The notes beneath the pieces were generated by a model. It saw only the letters and a program-made list of their open reading frames with translations, did not search any database and had not been told where the DNA came from. Positions 4,496-17,755 of a stretch of DNA of 20,862 bases are shown one piece after another. Position 1 is the first letter of the stretch; each line of letters opens with the position of its first letter. Origin of the DNA: a virus; IMG/VR virus record IMGVR_UViG_3300025086_000317, positions 1 through 20,862 of that record. One strand, given 5' to 3'. A program made the translations under genes and the position numbers.

Positions 4496-7400
4496 TTATG
4501 GTTGTGCTTCCCTTACTGCGTTCATTGCTGTAAACGAACTATTGACGACACCGTTATCAAAACCTGTTACAGTTGTAATTACATCTATTACAATCTGAGA
4601 TTCAACTGATGCAGAAGAATTAACTAAATCAAACCCCTTAATTTTTCCTGGGTCTACATCTAAAATCATATGCATAATTCTTTCTCCACCTTGAGATCCA
4701 TCAAATACTAAATTGTAGCCATCGCCATTTGCTCTTCTATAAGAAGATAAATTTCCAGAATCTACAGTTACTACTTTAGTTGCAAAGTTTGTAGCTGTTG
4801 CGGACCCAGATAATAGCATGCTTGATGCAGTTATTTGCCCATTTGATTTTAATATCGTTGAACCACCATCAACTGAAGTTGTTGAAGTTATCGATGAAGC
4901 ACCAATTGTCCAGCCTGCAACTTTACCGGCAGAAGCTGTTAGTGCTCCTGCTTGGTCTACTTGGAATGATGGAGATGAAGAACCACCAAGTCTAATTATT
5001 CCATTGTCTAAATCTAATTGAGAACCAGCTGATGCTGCCCAATTGTTAGAGTGTATCTTTCCAGTTGTTATTTTATCACCAGATATAGTTGTCCCAGCAG
5101 AGTTAGGTCCGGCCGGTAAATTAAATAACGCTCTTGCATTATCTGCTGTCAATGCAGACTTATATACACGGAACTCAGACATATAACCTGTAAGGTCATT
5201 AGTTGGTGATCCAGCAGCTGAATCTAATTCTCCTCCTAATAGAATTTCATCTATCTGGCCTGAATCTAAATTGGCTGTTTCTACATTGGCAGTAGTATAA
5301 GCACCTACATATTCACCATCAATATATAGTTTAGCTTGAGAACCGTCTGCCATTACTAGTACTATATGGTGCCATTGGTTTGTAAATTCAACTCCAGATG
5401 CCAATGTTCCAAGAGATACTTGATTTACAATTAGTTCGGTTAGATTATCCGTTGAACCATCATTCATAACCCAAATTAAATCATTATTTCCACCATCATG
5501 AAAACCAAATGGTATTATATCACCTGCATTGCTTGTTTCCTTAATCCAAAAAGATAAAGATATATCCATGTTAGAAGTTAAACCAGCTTTTAATGCATTT
5601 ATATCTATTCTAGAATCTGATCCATCAAATTGAGCGGCTCCTGGTAATGGTCCTGCAGATGTTCCTGCCACAAATGTTGTTCCTCCAGATATACTTCCAG
5701 CATCATCTTCTCCATGGTAATCGTTACCCGAATAATCTAATACTCTATCATTACCATTATCTGTTGTTACAGAATTATGCAAAGGGTAATACCCAATTAA
5801 ATTTTCTTCAGAAGGGAAGTCCATTATAGAAGCTGTTAATGCTCCACCAGTTACTGTTATATCTCCAGATATATTAGCACCAGTTGCTGCTAATACTCCT
5901 GCTTTTGTTACACTGAATGGTGCTGACCCGGCAGTTGCGTTACCTGCCCATAGTCTATAAGTTCCATCTTGTGAATCTAGTTTTACAATATCATTAGTTG
6001 TACCCAAAGTTAATGAACCAGCTGAATCTATCTCTGCGTTGTTTTTAGATAATTTGTCTGAGGCTATTGTCCAACCAGCTATTGTACCAGCAGAAGCTGT
6101 TAATGCTCCAGTTTCATCTACTGCAAAGTCTGGTGCAGATGAGCCTCCCAGTTTAATTGTTCCATTATCTAAGTCTAATTCAGAGCCAGCTGATGCTCCG
6201 TAATTTGTTGATTGAACCTTTCCAGTTTTAATTCTGCCACCTTCTATAACTGTTGTTCCACCTACAGTTCCTGCTGGCGATTGGTATAAAGCAGAGATTT
6301 CATTGTCTGTTAATTTGTAATGGCCAAAAACTCTAAGCTCATCGATAGATCCAGTATAACAGTATATCCCATCACCAGAAACAACTCCTGATGTTTGTCT
6401 AAAGCTAGAAGTTATTATTGCACTATCATTATGAGATGCTCCAATACCACTAAAACCCGAGTAAACTATACCGCCACTGTCTATATCCGGGTGGCCTGTT
6501 TCAGTTGCTTGATGTACTCCGTTTATATAAATACTTGCAGTACCATGATATCGTGATGCTGCAACGTGAGTCCAAACGCTAGATTCTATAGATGCAGAAA
6601 CTTTTAATGTGTCATAATTATTTGAAGAGCCCTCCCAAGCTGTCCACCAGATATGGCTACCTGAAATATATAAAGCGTCTCCATTTGATCCTCCTCCAGC
6701 TTCCCATACTATTTGAGGTTGAGTATGTGCAACATTTTCAGGTTTTACCCAAACAGATATACTTGCAGAGTGTAGCGGAGTCGTTGAACCACCAGGATAA
6801 TACCATTCTCTATCTTCTATTTCTATACGAGTACTTTTACCAGATTCAAAATTTATAGATGTACCACCAGTTATAAAGTTTCCACTTCCAGATACCCAAC
6901 ATTCATTTGCGTTTACAATAGAACCACTAATATCGTTTAAGTCTTGTCCTACTGTGTTATATACTATTGTTCCTGCTCCTACGTTAAAATCGTAATGATA
7001 AGATGGTGTGGTAGTAGGTAAAGCCGGTAAACTTGCTACTTCTATTTTACCAGAAAAATATCCATTCTGTGTATATAAACCATAACCGCTTACGCCATCG
7101 CTAAATTTAGAATCGGTAACACCAGATAAATCTCCAAGCCTTGCTTTTAGATCTACATCATAAACATCAGAACCCGTTCTTTCTACTATGTCTATGTATG
7201 GTGTATAGGGATCATTAGGGTTTGCGTTTAATCTAATATAACCAGTTCCAAGTTTACCAGTAGAAACTATTACTTGTGAACCTGAATAACTTTGAGCAGA
7301 TGAACCACTATCTCCAAGTGAACCAGATGTTCCTGCAAATGAAGTACCTAATCCTCTTTCTACATATATAGCACCAGTTAAATCGTTTTCTGCATCCCCG

Positions 7401-9229
7401 TATCTAGAAGATGAAATTACTTTCATATATTCAGTTGCAAAACCTGTACTATTCATTTTCTTTGCTGATAGTATTTCACCATTTGCAAAACCAGTAACAT
7501 TAACTACTGACATTGTTGTTTCATTAGGAGGATACTCTGAAGAAGTATACCCGGAAGGTTGCAATGTTGTTGGAAATACAGACCCAGTTAATGTTGTAGA
7601 ATTTGCAACATATAATTGACCTCCTACTGCAGTTACTGCTTCTTTTTCAAATACAGCTGTTGAAAGTGTCCCTCTAATTCTTGCGTTTTCTACTTCAAGG
7701 AAACCTCCCGATGCAGCTGTTAATCTAAAACCAGTTCCCGGAACGTTAGATGCAAAACCATCTGATTCTATGGTTCCATCTTTTTTAATTATCATTACTC
7801 CACCTTGCAGCTTTTCATTAGTAAAATCCCATCCTGCAATTTGATTAGTAGATCCTAATTGGAATACTTTTGTAGCTGAACCAGAATTTGCTTGGATACC
7901 ATAATTAGCATCATCCGTATAGTACATTCTAACTTTATGTTGATTACTCGGACCTGTTACTATAATTTCAGGAGATGCATCTCCTTTTAGTTCTATGTGT
8001 TCTCCAATTGATGCAAGGTCGTCTCCATTTATATTCCAACTTGCAATTTTACCAGCTGATGCTGACATTCTACCATCTGCAGAAACTTTGAATTGAGATG
8101 AGCTTATAAAACCAGTAGGATCAGAAGTTTCTGCTGATGAAGATATCATCCATTTGCTACCAGCAGAGGAAGATATATACCCATTTGTAGAATTTAATTC
8201 TAATGGTCCAGAATGCAATTTACCAGTCTCTATTGCCCATCCAGCTATCTCTCCTTCATTAGCAGTTATCTTTCCTTCAATGTTTGCAGCAGAAGCTGTC
8301 ATCTGTCCAGAAGATCTTACCTTAAATAATGAACTTGAAATAAAGCCTGCTTCGTCAGCTGGGTCTGCTGATGAAGATATTAACCAACCATCTCCAGCAG
8401 ATGAAGATATATAAGCATTAGCAGAATTTATCATTAATGGACCAGATGTTAATTTTGCATTATCAAATGCCCAGCCTGCAATTGTATTTCCAGTGTTGTT
8501 AGGGTTACCTAATCCAAATACTCTATTACCATCTTCCTTACCTTCTATTCCCCAATTCGAATCAGCACTAAAAAATAGATTTATATAGTTATCAGATGGC
8601 GAGCTAGTACGATTTATTCTAATTCTTGGGTGGGCATCTGCTTCTAAAAATATACCAGCTTCTGAAGCTATATTATCATTAGGTGCACTTAAAGTTTTAT
8701 CAGAAATTATCCATCCACCAATTTTTCCAGCACTTGCTGTTATTGCTCCAGCAGTATCTACTTGAAAACCAGAAGATGAAATATGAAAAGGTCCATCAGA
8801 ATCTAATTCAAAGGTTCCTGCAGAAGCTGATAGAATGTCTGTTCCTATTACCCATCCCCCAAGTGTACCACCAGCCGTAGCCGTAATAGACCCTTGCATT
8901 GTTACATTACCAGTATTTGACAATTCGAAATTAGAAGATGATATAGCAATCTTACCATCTCCAGAACCAGATAAGAAAGCATCACTACTTCCTAAGAAAA
9001 ACGTATCGGTTCTAATATCTAAACCTGAACCAGCAGAAGATGCAGAGTATCTAAAATAACTTTCTGAATGTAATACTGCTTCTAAACCTATACCGTCGTA
9101 ATCTGTGTCCGGTGCTCCCCCCGATCCGGTTAAGGTTTTGGAGCCAGACCAGAACATCCAACCAGAAGTTCCTAAAGAAGAACTTGCAGCTTTGAATCCT
9201 TGATAATTTAATGTTCTTAAATTTGCCAT
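4496..9229 (-). CDS. Giant tail fibre/adhesin with two LamG-like domains
   Basis: This 1577-aa protein starts at 9229 with GGAGC overlapping the last codons of the 703-aa gene. Residues 1-180 hold units ending in ITASAGKIGGW. Residues 196-474 contain two larger repeat families: a 78-residue unit at 251 and 329, and a DxNxGI...VFxLG...AGWxF unit at 196-260 and 413-474. Residues 745-983 and 1143-1371 read as LamG/concanavalin-A-like lectin domains: the first has ISVWVKP, VWTHVAASRYHG and YINGV, then SIDELRVF; the second has LSFWIK, QWHHIVLVM and LYIDGEYVGAY, then MSEFRVYKSAL. Each LamG is followed by the same linker of about 67 residues. Such domains in phage fibres usually bind surface glycans. 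It is probably the main host-contact fibre, followed by the S74 protein; which structure it attaches to is not visible. Confidence 0.88.
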   Translation of the reverse strand: MANLRTLNYQGFKAASSSLGTSGWMFWSGSKTLTGSGGAPDTDYDGIGLEAVLHSESYFRYSASSAGSGLDIRTDTFFLGSSDAFLSGSGDGKIAISSSNFELSNTGNVTMQGSITATAGGTLGGWVIGTDILSASAGTFELDSDGPFHISSSGFQVDTAGAITASAGKIGGWIISDKTLSAPNDNIASEAGIFLEADAHPRIRINRTSSPSDNYINLFFSADSNWGIEGKEDGNRVFGLGNPNNTGNTIAGWAFDNAKLTSGPLMINSANAYISSSAGDGWLISSSADPADEAGFISSSLFKVRSSGQMTASAANIEGKITANEGEIAGWAIETGKLHSGPLELNSTNGYISSSAGSKWMISSSAETSDPTGFISSSQFKVSADGRMSASAGKIASWNINGDDLASIGEHIELKGDASPEIIVTGPSNQHKVRMYYTDDANYGIQANSGSATKVFQLGSTNQIAGWDFTNEKLQGGVMIIKKDGTIESDGFASNVPGTGFRLTAASGGFLEVENARIRGTLSTAVFEKEAVTAVGGQLYVANSTTLTGSVFPTTLQPSGYTSSEYPPNETTMSVVNVTGFANGEILSAKKMNSTGFATEYMKVISSSRYGDAENDLTGAIYVERGLGTSFAGTSGSLGDSGSSAQSYSGSQVIVSTGKLGTGYIRLNANPNDPYTPYIDIVERTGSDVYDVDLKARLGDLSGVTDSKFSDGVSGYGLYTQNGYFSGKIEVASLPALPTTTPSYHYDFNVGAGTIVYNTVGQDLNDISGSIVNANECWVSGSGNFITGGTSINFESGKSTRIEIEDREWYYPGGSTTPLHSASISVWVKPENVAHTQPQIVWEAGGGSNGDALYISGSHIWWTAWEGSSNNYDTLKVSASIESSVWTHVAASRYHGTASIYINGVHQATETGHPDIDSGGIVYSGFSGIGASHNDSAIITSSFRQTSGVVSGDGIYCYTGSIDELRVFGHYKLTDNEISALYQSPAGTVGGTTVIEGGRIKTGKVQSTNYGASAGSELDLDNGTIKLGGSSAPDFAVDETGALTASAGTIAGWTIASDKLSKNNAEIDSAGSLTLGTTNDIVKLDSQDGTYRLWAGNATAGSAPFSVTKAGVLAATGANISGDITVTGGALTASIMDFPSEENLIGYYPLHNSVTTDNGNDRVLDYSGNDYHGEDDAGSISGGTTFVAGTSAGPLPGAAQFDGSDSRIDINALKAGLTSNMDISLSFWIKETSNAGDIIPFGFHDGGNNDLIWVMNDGSTDNLTELIVNQVSLGTLASGVEFTNQWHHIVLVMADGSQAKLYIDGEYVGAYTTANVETANLDSGQIDEILLGGELDSAAGSPTNDLTGYMSEFRVYKSALTADNARALFNLPAGPNSAGTTISGDKITTGKIHSNNWAASAGSQLDLDNGIIRLGGSSSPSFQVDQAGALTASAGKVAGWTIGASSITSTTSVDGGSTILKSNGQITASSMLLSGSATATNFATKVVTVDSGNLSSYRRANGDGYNLVFDGSQGGERIMHMILDVDPGKIKGFDLVNSSASVESQIVIDVITTVTGFDNGVVNSSFTAMNAVREAQP
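4895..5098 (-). repeat. Post-LamG linker, copy 2
   Basis: Encodes residues 1378-1445 of the giant fibre. It matches residues 990-1057 almost position for position: ITTGKIHSNNWAASAGSQLD here against IKTGKVQSTNYGASAGSELD there. Both continue into LDNG, LGGSS, a GALTASAG step and AGWTI. With the LamG domain before each, this marks duplication of a module of about 390 residues. Confidence 0.75.
6059..6262 (-). repeat. Post-LamG linker, copy 1
   Basis: Encodes residues 990-1057 of the giant fibre, directly after the first LamG domain. It is the partner of the repeat at 4895-5098, which lies 388 residues further along the protein. Confidence 0.75.
8030..8479 (-). repeat. 78-codon tandem repeat in the giant fibre
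   Basis: Residues 251-328 and 329-400 are head-to-tail copies. Each starts AGWA, then KLxSGPL, NSxNxYISSSAG, W-I/M-ISSSA, GFISSSxFKV and a G-x-MxASA step. The second copy is a little shorter. The unit fits a repeated beta-structured step of a fibre shaft. Confidence 0.75.
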
Positions 9230-9232
9230 TTT

Positions 9233-11344
9233 TTATGCTCCTATCTGTCCGTCAAATATTATACCTTCACCTAAAAATCCTTCTCCATTTATATAAGTAT
9301 TTCCACCTGCAAAATCTATACTTTCAGATACTAATATTAAATCTGCTCTTACTCCGTTATAATCGAAAAATTCAAATTTGAAATCTAATACATCATCCTC
9401 TTGATATTCTGGTACTCTTGCTTCTATTATAGTATGATTCGGTGTAAAGCCATCTTCAGAAATAGCTTTTATTGAAACTTCGCTTATTAACCATTTTCCA
9501 AAGTGAACTGCAAACACTGGAACTACAAAACCGTCGTGATCTGCTGTAAAAGTGTAAACTACATTGTCGCTATCATAAGCTGGTGCAGAGTTTTCCGTAA
9601 AGTCTGGTATTGACAAAGTAGTTGTTGATGTAGCAGTTGCAATCGTACTAGATCTTGGTATATTTGCAACTTGTGCCATAGGTATACTTGGTCCAGCCAT
9701 ATAAGGTCTGCCAATTAGTGAAACCGGTGCTACATAAGGAGCTCTTAATTCGTTACTGTCCATTCTTCTACCCAAGTCCGCTGAACCTATTGGATCATAA
9801 TCAACTCCAGACCCAGACATAAACACTTTCATATATTCTCTTCCTACATCTGAACCATCATCTACTTCTGCAAAGGCTCTTGCTTTGAAAGACACTTGAT
9901 ATTCGCAATTTCTAAAAACCTCAACTGGTTTTTTACATCTTACTCTAACATATTGATTATTACGATTAGATTCATTAGCTAAATCTTTAGATCCAGATAT
10001 AATCATACCTTCCATTAAAACTTCAGAGTCTGCTTTTAATTCTGTTGATCCTCCTGCTTTAGTAGATGTTGCTGCCCAATAATCATCTATTGTACTTTGG
10101 TTTATAAATCTACCAGTTCTTTCTAATCTAAAAATGTTAGAAGGGTTTGCAAGCAATTCTCTTTGTTCAACTATCTCGTCTGCTAGTATATCCCAAGTTT
10201 GCATACCATGAGATTTCATACAAGTTTTAACTCTGTATACATCCCCAGCCATTGGTGCTAAGTTACCCATAACTATATTTGCATAAGAAACAAGATTGTA
10301 ATTGTTTTCTGTATAAAGCGTTGGTTCACCTTGCCAACTTGCAGAGTAAGCAGTAGCTGCCATTTGTGTAGCTGTGTGTGTTGCATAAATAGATTGAGGG
10401 AAAGAAGATACAGCAGGTGTACCTCTTGAAGTTGTACCAGGTTGAGTATAACTATATTCAAATGAATAGGGTTTATCAACTATGCAAGTAGTAGTATTTA
10501 CAACAGATACTATAGAACAAGTGTAATCTCTAGTGTTTGGTTGACCATTTTGTTTTAATGCTGGAACTGTAATTGTGACATTAGGTAAAGCAGGCGTGTT
10601 ACCAGAAGAAGGGTCTGGAAACATTAAAGTTCCACCAATCATTGAAGAACTAAATTGAAAGTTACTAGATTGAATTGTTGTTTGAGGTGGTGTACTATAA
10701 GAATATCCGCTATTTGCTGCTTGTCCTCCTCCGCCTCTTGTTGCTCCAACGTTATTGTAAGTTTGAGCTGGCGTATGAGTGTAAGTAAATGTAGAAGATT
10801 CTTGTGCATCAGTTATAGTGTTAAAACCTAAATCTTGTGAAAAAGATTCGCTTAAATAAGGTTTTACATTTTCTGTTATTGTTATTCTTGGTTGATGACC
10901 AAATACTATAGGTGTAGTATTAGGTTTTGAAGGATCAACATATATTTCTCTTGACCACTTTACATTAGGTCTTCCTTGAAAAGAACCTCTTACAAATCTA
11001 CCACCAGGTCTTCTAGTCGCTGTTCCTCTTATAGTAACAGTTGCAAGACCAGTTAAATCTTCTGGATAAACGTATATAGATATTAATTTTCTATTAGAAT
11101 TGTCTGTGTAATTGTTTACTTCGTGATATATAGGTTCTACGCCATTTTCTGGCATAATTTCTATTTCTACTATACTACCTCTTAATAGTAAATCAGAGTT
11201 ACCACTAAGTCTAAACATATTTTTACCAGCATGTAATTGTGTTGGAAAATCGGACACTTGAAAATACTGAGATTCGTACTTATTATCTACTATAAGTACA
11301 GGTGTCTCAGCCAAATATTTTCTTGAACTTCTTTTTCGTCCCAT
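9233..11344 (-). CDS. Virion structural protein, 703 aa
   Basis: The ATG at 11344 follows CGGAGAAACTC, a good Shine-Dalgarno site with normal spacing. The N-terminus is basic (MGRKRSSRKY). It is followed by a domain (about residues 15-170) with LHAGKNMFRLSG, MPENGVEPIYHEV, ISIYVYPEDLTGLATVTI and then REIYVDPSKPNTTPI. That arrangement recurs, in my memory, in large structural proteins of marine T4-like phages. Residues 170-330 hold a Ser/Thr/Gly/Gln-rich stretch with a GGGGQ turn and a beta-rich insert (SSSMIGGTLMFPDP). The remainder has further beta-rich sequence and ends GEGIIFDGQIGA. I see no enzyme motif. Its position directly upstream of the giant fibre suggests a baseplate or proximal-fibre component; the exact role is inference. 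Confidence 0.85.
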   Translation of the reverse strand: MGRKRSSRKYLAETPVLIVDNKYESQYFQVSDFPTQLHAGKNMFRLSGNSDLLLRGSIVEIEIMPENGVEPIYHEVNNYTDNSNRKLISIYVYPEDLTGLATVTIRGTATRRPGGRFVRGSFQGRPNVKWSREIYVDPSKPNTTPIVFGHQPRITITENVKPYLSESFSQDLGFNTITDAQESSTFTYTHTPAQTYNNVGATRGGGGQAANSGYSYSTPPQTTIQSSNFQFSSSMIGGTLMFPDPSSGNTPALPNVTITVPALKQNGQPNTRDYTCSIVSVVNTTTCIVDKPYSFEYSYTQPGTTSRGTPAVSSFPQSIYATHTATQMAATAYSASWQGEPTLYTENNYNLVSYANIVMGNLAPMAGDVYRVKTCMKSHGMQTWDILADEIVEQRELLANPSNIFRLERTGRFINQSTIDDYWAATSTKAGGSTELKADSEVLMEGMIISGSKDLANESNRNNQYVRVRCKKPVEVFRNCEYQVSFKARAFAEVDDGSDVGREYMKVFMSGSGVDYDPIGSADLGRRMDSNELRAPYVAPVSLIGRPYMAGPSIPMAQVANIPRSSTIATATSTTTLSIPDFTENSAPAYDSDNVVYTFTADHDGFVVPVFAVHFGKWLISEVSIKAISEDGFTPNHTIIEARVPEYQEDDVLDFKFEFFDYNGVRADLILVSESIDFAGGNTYINGEGFLGEGIIFDGQIGA

Positions 11345-11401: not shown

Positions 11402-14400
11402 CTAGTGAATAACGTTGGAGAATTCGCCTTTCCTATTTATCTCTATTAAAGAATCTGTTACATCTTTTAGAGATTCTATATGAGAAATAATTATTATGTA
11501 ATCAAACTCCGATTTCAAATAACTAAACATGCTTTCCATTGAACTTAAGTTTTCAGAATCTAATGTTCCAAAACCTTCGTCTATTGCTAAAAAATTCGGC
11601 CTTGGTAAATTTGAAACGTTTATTAGTGCAACACGTATTGCTAAAGAAGATATGAACTTTTCCATACCAGAAGTTAATTCTAAAGACCACTTTTTATTGT
11701 CGTAAACGATATAGGTTAAAACTGATTTACCGTCTACTTCAAATTCTATAGTAAAGTCAACCATCTGAGAAAGTATAGTGTTAACTTCGTCTTGTATATA
11801 TGGAAGGACTTCTGAAATTATTTCATAGGGTATACCGTCTCTTTGAATTGCTTCTAGGTAATATTCATATGACTTTAATTTTATTTCCAATTGATGAGCT
11901 TTTTCAATTGTATTATTTATAGTTTCAATTTTAGTTTTCCATAAACTAACAGAAGAATGTTTTTCAACTAGGTCTTCTTCCTTTAATTCTAAGTCAGCTT
12001 CCCACTTTGTTTTAGATAACTCTTTCTTTGCAATTTCTTTATTGACTTTTTCATTAAAAAGGATAACCTCTTCATTTTCGTAATATTTCTTTATATCTTT
12101 ATCTATAGCTCTTATTTCAGATTTGCAACGTTTTATATTTGACTTCCTTGTTACAGTCTTAACTTTTATTTCAGATTGATAAACTTGTATAGTTGAAACC
12201 TTTTTTTCTAATTTTGCATACTCATCTATCAAATCTTCAAATTCTCCATAAGATTCTAGTTTTTGATTGCACTTAGAAATATCTTTCATTAGAGCTATGT
12301 ATTCAATTTTGCATTGATCTATTTGCAATTTTATTCTTTCTGCACTTTTTACAAAAGAATTATTTTTACAAAAGTCACAGTTGGGGTCGAATGTACCTAT
12401 TGCATCAAGTTTTTCTTTAGCATTTTTAACTTCAGACTTTAACAATTTTAATTTAGTATTTAACTTTTGCATTACCTTTTCATCAGCTAAATAGTTTTTT
12501 TGGTTTGCTTTTGCTTTTTCAATATCTATTTTGGAAAGTTCTAAACTAATATTTTTATACTCAACTTTATTTTTTTCTGTATAGTCTTTGTATTTATTAA
12601 GTTTACTTAAGTCTAATACCGCTTCCTCTTCAAGTTCTTCTTTTCTCTTCTTTAAGTCTACTATGTCTAAATCCTTTTTAACTTTTCTCAAAGATTTGTA
12701 CAATTCTTTAAGCTCTTCGTCTTTGTCTTTTATATTAGATTTTATTCTAGAAACAGTTTTACTAGATTGCTTGTATTCTGCTTTACTATCTTTTAGTTGG
12801 TCTTCTGCTTCTATTAACTCGGAATCATAATCAGTCTTATTAAAATCTTTTAATAGTATTTGAACTTCTTTTATATCTTCATTTGCTAATTGATATAATT
12901 CTTCAAATACGGTTATATCTAAAAATTGAGAAAGCAACTCTTTTCTTTCTGTTTGTGTTTTTTCTATAAAGCCTGTATTATTACCTTGTACAGATAAAGC
13001 CGTTAAAATAAAATCTTCGTATTCTCCAACTATACCCCTGATATTTTTGTCGGTGTCTCTTCTTTGTTCACCATTCAAATCGACCCTTTCTCCACCTTCA
13101 TCGATATACCAAAAGTCAACGTCAACTCTAATCTTTGTATTATTTCTTCTTCTCTTAGCAGTTCTTTCTATATAATAGTCTACCTCTTCTATCTTAAAAT
13201 GCAACTTACAAGAAAAAGTTGATTTTTGAGTATTCATTATGTCATCAGCTTTTTTTCCTCTACTGCATCTATCAAATAAACAAAAAGACAAAGAATCTAA
13301 TAAAGCAGATTTACCTATATGATTTTGTGCAAATATTCCAATTAAACCATTTAACTTTTCAAAGTTTACAACGTTACCCGGTCCATATGAAAACATATTT
13401 GAAAATTCAAATTTTACAGGTTTCCAATCTATACCCCTACCTATTTCTATATCTGACAAATTATTATTCAAGTTTCTATTTATAGACTTTATCTCAGATA
13501 ATATGCTTGGTTCTATTTCGTGGTTTTTATTCAAGTATTCTTCTATCATTTCGTTTTGATACTCTACATTACGAACGTCTTTGGTTATTCTTCTAGAAGA
13601 TTTATTTTCCGATGAACCTTTTATTTTATCTTCTCTAATTATTATTACATCTTGAACTTTGCATTTTTTTCTTATTTCTTTTACAACTTCTTTTATTTGT
13701 GCTTGAGTTGTATTTACAATCTTAAACCTTAATCTAGGATATTTTGGTATATCACTTAGGTCTTGATTTATAATACCATCTTTTATATGGATTGTGTAAT
13801 ATCCATATTCATTTTTTATACTAAATTCTTCGTAACTTTTAGTTTTAACATCCCAAACTATATAGCCATGATTTTCATAAGCTTCACCAAAATTTTGTTG
13901 TATCAAACTACCAGCATAACAAATGGTTTTTTCTTTATTTAGAAATTGTCTTTTGTGTATATCACCAAGCAAGACTAAATCGTAATCTTCAAATAAATCT
14001 ATTTTATGTTCTTCATTTGCTACCTTAAAGCCAGCGTCAGTTGCTGATGAGTCTATAGCTCCGTGAAACAAGGCTATTTTATTTTTTCCATCTATATCTT
14101 TTGCTTTAATATAATTGCTTACCTCATCTGCAATTTCAAATACAGAAAAGTTGCAATCTGCAATTCTGTATACATCGGTCTTATCTAAGTAAAATAAATT
14201 TTTATGATTTAAGTTCTTAACTATAGGAGACAGTGTATCTAGTCTCGTATCGTTGTTTAGATTGGTGTCATGGTTACCTTTGATAAGTATAGTAGGTTTT
14301 ATGTCTGCTAGTTTCTTTAGAAATTCTGAGGTTATCTCTATTAGCTCTGGTGATATATCTGTTTTGTTATGTACTATATCTCCCGCAATATAAATCAAAG

Positions 14401-14545
14401 AATTGTTAGGTAAAGCCTTTGCAGCTTTATACAATTCTTTGAATATTGACCTATATTCTTTGTGACGTTGGTAATTTCTTATATGAACGTCTGCAATGTG
14501 TAAAATTTTATTTACATTTTCAAAATCGACTTTAACATGCTGCAT
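11402..14545 (-). CDS. Fused SbcD-SbcC (Mre11-Rad50; T4 gp47-gp46-type) recombination nuclease/ATPase
   Basis: One 1047-aa frame carries both halves of a complex normally made from two genes. Residues 1 to about 300 form a Mre11-type phosphoesterase: D19-x-H21, GD at 55-56, GNHD at 90-93, a FHG step at 160-162 and GDIHKRQ at 194-200. From about 375 it is an SMC-like ATPase: P-loop AQNHIGKS at 406-413, long coiled coil (about 550-900), zinc-hook C723-x-x-C726 at its middle, signature LTSGMEKF at 957-964, Walker B FLAIDEGFGTLD at 985-996 and H-loop His1022. The family resects DNA ends for recombination-dependent replication and, in T4, host DNA breakdown. The first P-loop glycine is replaced by Ala, and the usual NGxGKS is NHIGKS. 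The start overlaps the primase end by 14 bases, with GGAG about 10 bases upstream. Function is firm; the fusion is the unusual part. Confidence 0.93.
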   Translation of the reverse strand: MQHVKVDFENVNKILHIADVHIRNYQRHKEYRSIFKELYKAAKALPNNSLIYIAGDIVHNKTDISPELIEITSEFLKKLADIKPTILIKGNHDTNLNNDTRLDTLSPIVKNLNHKNLFYLDKTDVYRIADCNFSVFEIADEVSNYIKAKDIDGKNKIALFHGAIDSSATDAGFKVANEEHKIDLFEDYDLVLLGDIHKRQFLNKEKTICYAGSLIQQNFGEAYENHGYIVWDVKTKSYEEFSIKNEYGYYTIHIKDGIINQDLSDIPKYPRLRFKIVNTTQAQIKEVVKEIRKKCKVQDVIIIREDKIKGSSENKSSRRITKDVRNVEYQNEMIEEYLNKNHEIEPSILSEIKSINRNLNNNLSDIEIGRGIDWKPVKFEFSNMFSYGPGNVVNFEKLNGLIGIFAQNHIGKSALLDSLSFCLFDRCSRGKKADDIMNTQKSTFSCKLHFKIEEVDYYIERTAKRRRNNTKIRVDVDFWYIDEGGERVDLNGEQRRDTDKNIRGIVGEYEDFILTALSVQGNNTGFIEKTQTERKELLSQFLDITVFEELYQLANEDIKEVQILLKDFNKTDYDSELIEAEDQLKDSKAEYKQSSKTVSRIKSNIKDKDEELKELYKSLRKVKKDLDIVDLKKRKEELEEEAVLDLSKLNKYKDYTEKNKVEYKNISLELSKIDIEKAKANQKNYLADEKVMQKLNTKLKLLKSEVKNAKEKLDAIGTFDPNCDFCKNNSFVKSAERIKLQIDQCKIEYIALMKDISKCNQKLESYGEFEDLIDEYAKLEKKVSTIQVYQSEIKVKTVTRKSNIKRCKSEIRAIDKDIKKYYENEEVILFNEKVNKEIAKKELSKTKWEADLELKEEDLVEKHSSVSLWKTKIETINNTIEKAHQLEIKLKSYEYYLEAIQRDGIPYEIISEVLPYIQDEVNTILSQMVDFTIEFEVDGKSVLTYIVYDNKKWSLELTSGMEKFISSLAIRVALINVSNLPRPNFLAIDEGFGTLDSENLSSMESMFSYLKSEFDYIIIISHIESLKDVTDSLIEINRKGEFSNVIH

Positions 14546-15489: not shown

Positions 15490-15927
15490 TTATAACGCAA
15501 TTTTATTTATAACGTTTATAGTTTCTTTGTCTAGATTTACTCTTGCAAATCTTCTTGGTCCTATGCAATCATTATAGAACTTGCTTGAGTTTGCTACATG
15601 AAATTTATGATGTAAATTTTCTTCTATATAATTAACTTGACCTTTCGTTTTACCAAAAGCTAATATCTTGAAATTAAATTGTTTTTTATTTTTTTGAATG
15701 CTTTCTTGTAAAGTTTTGGAACTGCCTATATAAGTTCTCCAATCTGAATCCTTTCTTATGACTTTTCTTCTTTTACTTCCTTTCTTTTTAACTCTTCTAG
15801 TTTTGCCAAAGTATTTTCTACCAATATACATTTTACCAGTTTTATCGTTTGTAATTAAATAAACAAAACCAAATACGCCTTCAGGCGCTTCTTCTAGAAT
15901 TTTATTTTTATATAACCAATGACTCAT
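15490..15927 (-). CDS. GIY-YIG nuclease-like protein
   Basis: I chose the ATG at 15927, giving 145 aa (MSHWLYKNKILEEAPEG), one base after the stop of the 608-aa gene. This opening resembles related phage proteins as I remember them. An in-frame ATG at 15945 would add six residues and overlap the gene before. Neither has a clear Shine-Dalgarno site. In the longer numbering, G26-FVY29 and Y40-IG42 match the GIY-YIG pair, followed by R43, a very basic segment (KKKGSKRRKVIRK), DWRTYIGSS at 68-76 and Glu108-Glu109 in NYIEENLHHKF, where the family's metal-binding Glu is expected. GIY-YIG proteins include homing endonucleases and repair nucleases; this compact form is common in T4-like phages. Activity is inferred from the motifs only. 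Confidence 0.82.
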   Translation of the reverse strand: MSHWLYKNKILEEAPEGVFGFVYLITNDKTGKMYIGRKYFGKTRRVKKKGSKRRKVIRKDSDWRTYIGSSKTLQESIQKNKKQFNFKILAFGKTKGQVNYIEENLHHKFHVANSSKFYNDCIGPRRFARVNLDKETINVINKIAL

Positions 15928-15928
15928 T

Positions 15929-17755
15929 TTATATTGTTGTATCAAATCTTATTTGAAAAGTGTTATCATAATCATCTTGATTTTTTATAGGTTGAGCTAA
16001 TTTTCCAACTGCTACTAATTCGTGACTATCATTATACAAACCTATAGTTGTGATATAAGGGTTAAATTCTGAATGAGTAGTATATGCTTGTAAGTTATCA
16101 TTTCTTGCATCAAACTTTTCTCTTGCAGTTGGATTATACGTTGCATTAAATTCTCCATCTAATATATTGCAAATATAAAGATGTTCTTTTATTTTATGTG
16201 TACCTTTGAAAGTTATCTTTTCTGTTGCATCATTACCCCAGTTAACTTGATAACTTACGCCATCTGTATTGTTTGGCGTAGTTATGGTTGCTATACCATG
16301 TTCATAGAAAACATTTCCAACGTAATTGTCTTGGTTAACGCTAGCACTAATACAATTAATCAAGTTAGTATTACTAGGGTTTATAAATTCATCGTATAAT
16401 CTTACTGAAGATATTGACCCAGAAAAAGGATCTATGTAATTTTTTTGATCTTTTTGATTAAACCACTTTTGATATTGTTGATTTCTATATCTTTGTTTGT
16501 AATTATAAGGTCTTGCTCCCAGATGCATATCTACTGGCCATCTTGTATTAAGGTGAGAAGGTATGTAATCGCCACTTGCTTCTGTATTACCATCTACAAT
16601 TAAATAACAAGTTCCACCTCCAACGGTTAGTAAGATGTGGTGCCATTCTGAATCATTAAAGGTATTAGTTGAAGTAAGATTGTTAATCCAACCTTCGGTT
16701 TTAGATTTATATGTAACTCTTAATTTACCCTTGTCTGCAGATAGACTGTTTATTATTTCTAAAGATATAGGACAATTATTTCCCCACCATTCTCTAGTTG
16801 TTAATATGGTATTTCTTTGCCTACCAGTTCTTAGCGTTCTTGTAATTCTAGAATTGGTTCCATTTTCATAATCCCAAGGGCCAGAATAACTTTCGGAAAC
16901 AGATTGAGATTCTGGACATTTGACCCATAATGAAATTGCAAAGTCAGATTCTAAATCTAAATCTTTCGTTCCTTTTATTCTAACAAAAGAACTATCAGAA
17001 GGGTTATCTATAGAATTGCTTTCTTGTAAACTATGAGAACCATGAAAAGTTACATGTCCTCTTGTTGCTCCATTAATATGAGCTGGATCTCCGTACCATT
17101 TTACATTATATGCACAAGCTTCATAGTCTCCAGCTGCTTCAATAAAAGTAGAACTTGTTGCTACGAATCTTGGACCGCCAGGGCTAAACCATTCTCCAGT
17201 GTGTCTCCAGTAATCAGTAAAGGGTGCGTATAACAAAGATGAAGATAAAGTAGTTGATGCAGTTGAACCAGTAGTATCTAATAAATCTCTTAAATTACCT
17301 TTGCCATCATCTGTTAAAACGTAAGACGATCTGCTTATTATTAAACTACCAGGTTTTATTTCTTCTCCATATATAGAAGACGGTATAGATAAAACAAAAA
17401 CTATTCCATCTAATTCCTTTGCCATTTTATGAGGTTCATCGTTACAAAAAGAGTCATAGGGATTGTCATTCAAACCATAGTACAAATGGTCTATACTTTT
17501 ATGAATTCCGTATGAATAATATTCTCTACCTCTATGTGTAGTTATTGCATTACTGACTGTGCCGCCGAAATGAGGGTCTGACGTATTGAATTGGTAACTT
17601 CCAGTTTGTGCTGCTTTGTGATCATAAGCTAACCCTTGAAAATATTCAACACCTAAGCTTGCAGAGTTTTCTTTATCTACTTCCCATTCTTTATGGGTAA
17701 CGGTTGGCGTAATCTTTTTTTCACCACCTTTGAATGTTTTGAAAATTTCTGACAT
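15929..17755 (-). CDS. Virion protein with inserted LamG domain, paralogue of the 369-aa neighbour
   Basis: 608 aa. The start at 17755 lies 17 bases after the 369-aa gene and has no good Shine-Dalgarno site. Residues 1 to about 160 have SFCNDEPHKMAKELDGIVFV, then PGSLIISRSSYVLTDDG. Residues 255-458 read as a LamG/concanavalin-A-like domain: FAISLWVK at 272-279, EWHHILLTVGGGTCYLIVDG at 370-389 and SGSISSVRLYDE at 445-456. The final part has VGNVFYEHGIATIT at 479-492 and ITTIGLYNDSHELVAVGKL at 568-586. Everything outside the LamG segment lines up in order with the 369-aa protein. This suggests duplication followed by gain of a carbohydrate-binding domain. The likely location is the baseplate or tail surface; I see no catalytic motif. 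Confidence 0.87.
   Translation of the reverse strand: MSEIFKTFKGGEKKITPTVTHKEWEVDKENSASLGVEYFQGLAYDHKAAQTGSYQFNTSDPHFGGTVSNAITTHRGREYYSYGIHKSIDHLYYGLNDNPYDSFCNDEPHKMAKELDGIVFVLSIPSSIYGEEIKPGSLIISRSSYVLTDDGKGNLRDLLDTTGSTASTTLSSSLLYAPFTDYWRHTGEWFSPGGPRFVATSSTFIEAAGDYEACAYNVKWYGDPAHINGATRGHVTFHGSHSLQESNSIDNPSDSSFVRIKGTKDLDLESDFAISLWVKCPESQSVSESYSGPWDYENGTNSRITRTLRTGRQRNTILTTREWWGNNCPISLEIINSLSADKGKLRVTYKSKTEGWINNLTSTNTFNDSEWHHILLTVGGGTCYLIVDGNTEASGDYIPSHLNTRWPVDMHLGARPYNYKQRYRNQQYQKWFNQKDQKNYIDPFSGSISSVRLYDEFINPSNTNLINCISASVNQDNYVGNVFYEHGIATITTPNNTDGVSYQVNWGNDATEKITFKGTHKIKEHLYICNILDGEFNATYNPTAREKFDARNDNLQAYTTHSEFNPYITTIGLYNDSHELVAVGKLAQPIKNQDDYDNTFQIRFDTTI

Follow-up and report, generated by a model that had tools for sequence, protein, structure and literature searches.

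Fusions of Mre11 and Rad50 in one polypeptide were published by Yoshida et al. in 2011 from Mimivirus (R555), a Bacillus phage (0305phi8-36), plasmids, bacteria and eukaryotes, and this broader set of fusions was found not to be monophyletic (PMC3175470). The same study described homologues of the fusion as abundant in aquatic viral metagenomes and viral fractions, confirmed them from a few long environmental sequences, and noted phage primases on some of the metagenome scaffolds that carry R555 homologues (PMC3175470). The gene studied here, found in a window by which we mean the whole 20.9 kb fragment of phage DNA that was analysed, belongs to this already described kind of fusion and is standard in its group; the one-chain form that a sequence-only reading of the window had set against the separate genes of SbcD/SbcC, Mre11/Rad50 and T4 gp47/gp46 was already known from the 2011 fusions, a phage one included (PMC3175470). 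Like the window protein, R555 joins an N-terminal Mre11 part to a C-terminal Rad50 part and has Asp in place of His206 of P. furiosus Mre11 (PfMre11), a likeness taken from the paper's description, but it is 1351 aa long and comes from a eukaryotic giant virus (PMC3175470).

The phage systems with separate subunits offer a second comparison. The gp47/gp46 pair of T4 and the SbcD/SbcC pairs of the Herelleviridae (SPO1-like phages) have the same domains in the same order as the window protein, including the CxxC hook, and the Herelleviridae also resemble the window in having a primase nearby. In contrast, both are made from two genes, have GHxH rather than GDxH in the last nuclease motif, and fall on the opposite side of a strongly supported branch (100/99) in our tree of head domains; among split relatives, the Herelleviridae pairs match the window protein best, at ~25% identity. 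Among cultured phages, Microcystis phage Mel-JY01 encodes a fused protein (WWT39521.1) that aligns to 98% of the query with 41% identity yet is annotated only as 'AAA domain containing protein'. As in the window, GIY-YIG and primase genes lie upstream of the Mel-JY01 fusion, although there a 57 aa ORF separates primase and fusion.

The window gene is a real single-chain fusion of an end nuclease with an ATPase motor (Table 1). Its frame runs on the minus strand from an ATG at 14545 to a stop at 11402 and encodes 1047 aa with no internal stop, so that the uninterrupted frame and coordinates of the sequence-only reading hold, with the addition of the strand, which that reading omitted. Pfam places Metallophos at residues 13-198 (2.5e-12) and AAA_23 at 382-626 (1.9e-10), followed by a weak SbcC_Walker_B match at 957-1006 that lies below the family cut-off (0.003), while PHROG assigns an SbcD-like family (phrog_100) to residues 6-347 and an SbcC-like family (phrog_77) to 234-1046; together with the ORF itself, these matches give the domain order typical of Mre11/Rad50 (SbcDC) fusions. 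In a PDB sequence search the two halves match Rad50, SbcC and Mre11 chains, and the AF2 and Foldseek matches are likewise to Mre11-Rad50 and SbcCD. The SbcC/Rad50 feature set is complete, comprising Walker A, signature, Walker B, D-loop, H-loop and a CxxC hook between coiled coils, and the nuclease motifs are found at D19/H21, D56, N91-H92, H161 and D195/H197. The placing of nuclease and ATPase motifs along one chain was therefore sound, and the motif positions already proposed are all correct in the window protein and nearly all fixed in its relatives: across 142 distinct fused sequences, on which all conservation counts are based, there is almost no variation in the metal ligands, the Walker motifs, the signature, the hook cysteines or the H-loop. 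A fixed 1:1 ratio of nuclease to ATPase, also part of that reading, follows from a one-chain fusion with intact motifs.

Table 1. Features of the fused gene and the adjoining primase-like gene in the window
Feature	Position	Strand	Basis
Fused Mre11-like nuclease / Rad50-like ATPase gene	11402..14545	(-)	ORF reading, Pfam, PHROG
Calcineurin-like (Mre11/SbcD) nuclease domain, residues 13-200	13946..14509	(-)	Metallophos, alignment, conservation
Mre11-type capping region, residues 201-305 (boundary inferred)	13631..13945	(-)	AF2 of residues 1-398 matching 3qg5_D, 3tho_B, 6s6v_B
Predicted Rad50-binding helix-loop-helix (HLH), residues 327-360	13466..13567	(-)	AF2 helices; alignment with C-terminal helices of split phage nucleases
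Short linker from HLH to first ATPase strand, residues 361-372	13430..13465	(-)	AF2, alignment
ATPase N-lobe, Walker A AxxxxGKS at residues 406-413 (K412/S413)	12911..13429	(-)	AAA_23, alignment
Zinc-hook CxxC (C723, C726), coiled-coil tip	12368..12379	(-)	Conserved in 142/142; AF2 long helices on both sides
ATPase C-lobe: signature SGME 959-962, Walker B D989-E990, H-loop H1022	11405..11845	(-)	Pfam, alignment, conservation
DnaG-type primase-like gene, zinc ribbon and Toprim, 306 aa	14532..15452	(-)	phrog_47 (3.4e-37); TIGR00646/TIGR01391

How the two halves are joined is addressed by two AF2 models, one of the full protein (mean pLDDT 81, pTM only 0.42), with its first ATPase strand at residue 373, and one of residues 1-398 (mean pLDDT 84, pTM 0.74). 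Both agree on a nuclease core, a capping region to ~304, a low-confidence stretch at ~307-322 and two helices at 327-341 and 346-360/362. With the model of residues 1-398 as query, the three best Foldseek hits are Mre11 chains of T. maritima (3qg5_D, 3qg5_C and 3tho_B) and the fourth is SbcD of E. coli (6s6v_B), while 3thn, a shorter Mre11 core, comes further down; the Foldseek output itself gives lengths only. The top chains come from Mre11:Rad50 complexes and include the Rad50-binding HLH, in keeping with the published description of the T. maritima complex (PMC3175470). The sequence-only reading had envisaged a linker of ~75-100 residues that takes the place of a protein interface; instead, this region is predicted to be mostly folded as a retained HLH, with only ~12 residues between it and the ATPase, and both AF2 models and Foldseek speak against a long flexible linker standing in for the interface. 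The gap between the C-terminus of T. maritima Mre11 and the N-terminus of Rad50 is ~28 Å, for which 9-12 residues suffice, and the predicted linker fits this published length (PMC3175470). Thus, with capping and HLH regions both kept and a linker matched to the gap, the Mre11-Rad50 interface appears to be kept and tethered rather than replaced.

We propose, with a probability of roughly 0.8, that this gene encodes the single-chain Mre11-Rad50 (SbcDC) of a large group of T4-like aquatic phages, acting in ATP-controlled end trimming and recombination-dependent replication. In this architecture, contacts at the zinc hook, at the dimer face of the nuclease and at the ATP-sandwiched heads would join two chains into the equivalent of an M2R2 complex, and the nuclease would be able to trim DNA ends or hairpins once the heads open under ATP control. 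Such trimming would provide the phage recombinase with 3' single strands and so serve recombination-dependent replication and repair, and the protein might also aid host DNA degradation, as T4 gp46/gp47 does. By likeness to gp46/47, DNA-end resection for recombination-dependent replication is the most likely function. The window being a fragment, the other replication genes of the phage were judged from relatives, and Mel-JY01 encodes RecA, PolB, a clamp loader, a gp41-type helicase and a T4-like capsid. Relatives likewise bear on copy number: AAA_23 matches the fused gene in all 16 large phage records of 125-735 kb (in LR756508, its downstream part), and in 15 of them a search with AAA_23 for a second SbcC copy found none outside it. 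Most likely the fused protein is the phage's only Mre11-Rad50 machine. The 735 kb phage LR756501.1 shows two further AAA_23 (SbcC-like) matches, at 672010-672690 and 148883-149116, and extra Metallophos matches in the large phage records belong to other ORFs, 193-278 aa in length.

The metal site of the fused proteins is somewhat unusual. The SbcD/Mre11 ligand set (D, H, D, N, H, H, HxH) is all there except for the first His of HxH, which is Asp195 in the window protein; this residue aligns to PfMre11 His206 and is Asp in 142/142 distinct fused sequences, so that the fused group has GDxH where E. coli SbcD and the split phages with an alignable motif have GHxH. The Asp is shared by Mimivirus R555 (PMC3175470). 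A second metal-site substitution, Gln for His21 (motif I DxH to DxQ), occurs in 21 of the 142 relatives and also in the Tenacibaculum/PAU group, and the nuclease chemistry may accordingly be altered. Both substitutions would suit a protein that is mainly an end tether, retaining ATPase-driven end binding and bridging while its nuclease specificity has been changed by the His-to-Asp replacement, for example to endonuclease or hairpin cutting only. We consider this unlikely. Asp is able to bind metal, and the other nuclease ligands are kept despite divergence to ~40% identity, so that catalysis appears to be selected.

The neighbourhood of the gene bears on a different alternative. The primase-like gene overlaps the start of the fused gene by 14 nt, and a DnaG-like primase lies upstream on the same strand, within 1.2 kb, in 111 of the 114 distinct loci with room to show it. 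Between the window primase and a tail gene with a LamG lectin domain (15929-17755) sits a SegE-like GIY-YIG endonuclease ORF with a TTG start (15490-15945, minus strand), which is probably a mobile homing endonuclease since no more than 27 of the 114 related loci have a match to it. The LamG protein and a second one at 4496-9229, both large, Ser/Gly-rich putative tail proteins on the minus strand, flank the replication genes and thus place primase and fusion inside a tail-fibre block. That the gene encodes an SMC protein of the Lamassu LmuB kind, carried by the phage for defence or counter-defence and not as a replication factor, is very improbable: the PADLOC LmuB model does match the ATPase part (8.9e-25), but SMC-like ATPases match one another broadly, and the fused Mre11 domain, the CxxC hook and the conserved primase neighbour favour an SbcCD role. 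Moreover, those window neighbours that match a family are genes for tail proteins, a GIY-YIG endonuclease and the primase, with neither an LmuA effector nor an LmuC partner among them, and PADLOC gave no match on the primase and GIY-YIG genes.

Single-chain SbcDC genes of this type are widespread. In a first set of 80 IMG/VR loci fetched by similarity (100 to 41% identity), all 80 have one open frame spanning both halves, a few ending at a contig edge, and in a second scan 583 of the 600 stretches listed encode relatives, so that IMG/VR contains at least this number. An assembly or frameshift artefact, or a chance ORF, is refuted by the same open frame in separate IMG/VR contigs at 100, 98, 90 and 81% identity (L029, L005, L001 and L002) and on down to ~40%, nothing having been found in its favour, and we give it next to no weight. 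We opened 172 fused-group loci, some of which overlap on one contig and one of which is the window itself; 169 pass the single-frame test, and 170 are single frames when L093 is counted, whose single 1243-aa frame is too divergent for the test. One further locus (L091) is cut by the contig end, and in the 484 kb phage LR756508 (L083) a ~0.9 kb insert (8700-9605) breaks the fused gene just after GDIHKRQ. The fused form is thus the usual state in the related aquatic phage group, the very outcome that the sequence-only reading had named as counting against it. The LR756508 insert seems to contain a cysteine-rich ORF that resembles an endonuclease; an Rfam search of it gave no intron match and one chance-level match only. 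Four loci that carry the gene bear MAG labels of Nitrosopelagicus, Chloroflexi, 'bacterium' and Gammaproteobacteria (L089, L090, L091 and L092); these contigs are probably of phage origin and were binned with cellular DNA. Plasmid relatives gave partial matches only, none reaching 80% query coverage.

In a head-domain tree of 32 rows and 656 columns, the 22 fused and 10 split proteins lie on opposite sides of the single branch noted above, which is compatible with a single origin of the fused phage proteins; the fused rows came from searches with fused queries, and the tree includes neither R555 nor cellular fusions. A more distant fused group comprises the 735 kb phage and phages of Tenacibaculum, Chryseobacterium and Sphingomonas (PAU), whose proteins are annotated 'metallo-phosphoesterase', 'DNA repair' or with a bare gp number. 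The phrog_35725 'metallo-phosphoesterase' proteins of the latter three also combine the nuclease and an SbcC-type ATPase in one chain; they differ in being ~1300 aa long and only ~23% identical to the LR756501 member, and in the stretches read no primase annotation lies near their genes. Among these outlying fusions the last nuclease motif reads GHIH in PAU and GDIH or another xDIH in the others. In Nitunavirus, the nuclease and ATPase genes share a reading frame but are separated by several stops, an arrangement that is a possible template for the fusion and not evidence of ancestry. A more far-reaching proposal sees in the fused phage proteins a single old lineage: when the nuclease became tethered to the ATPase, its metal site would have been rebuilt for good (Asp for His), giving a single-chain Mre11-Rad50 that cuts with altered chemistry and works with the adjacent primase in replication. 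We regard this as rather unlikely.

In public annotations the fusion is hidden as 'AAA domain' or 'metallo-phosphoesterase'. A one-gene Mre11-Rad50 of fixed stoichiometry may be handy for structural studies and single-molecule experiments, and its metal site, with the invariant Asp, would offer a simple handle on exo- versus endonuclease control. For the phages themselves, our analysis points to a single-chain Mre11-Rad50 as the standard end-processing gene across a widespread group of large aquatic phages.
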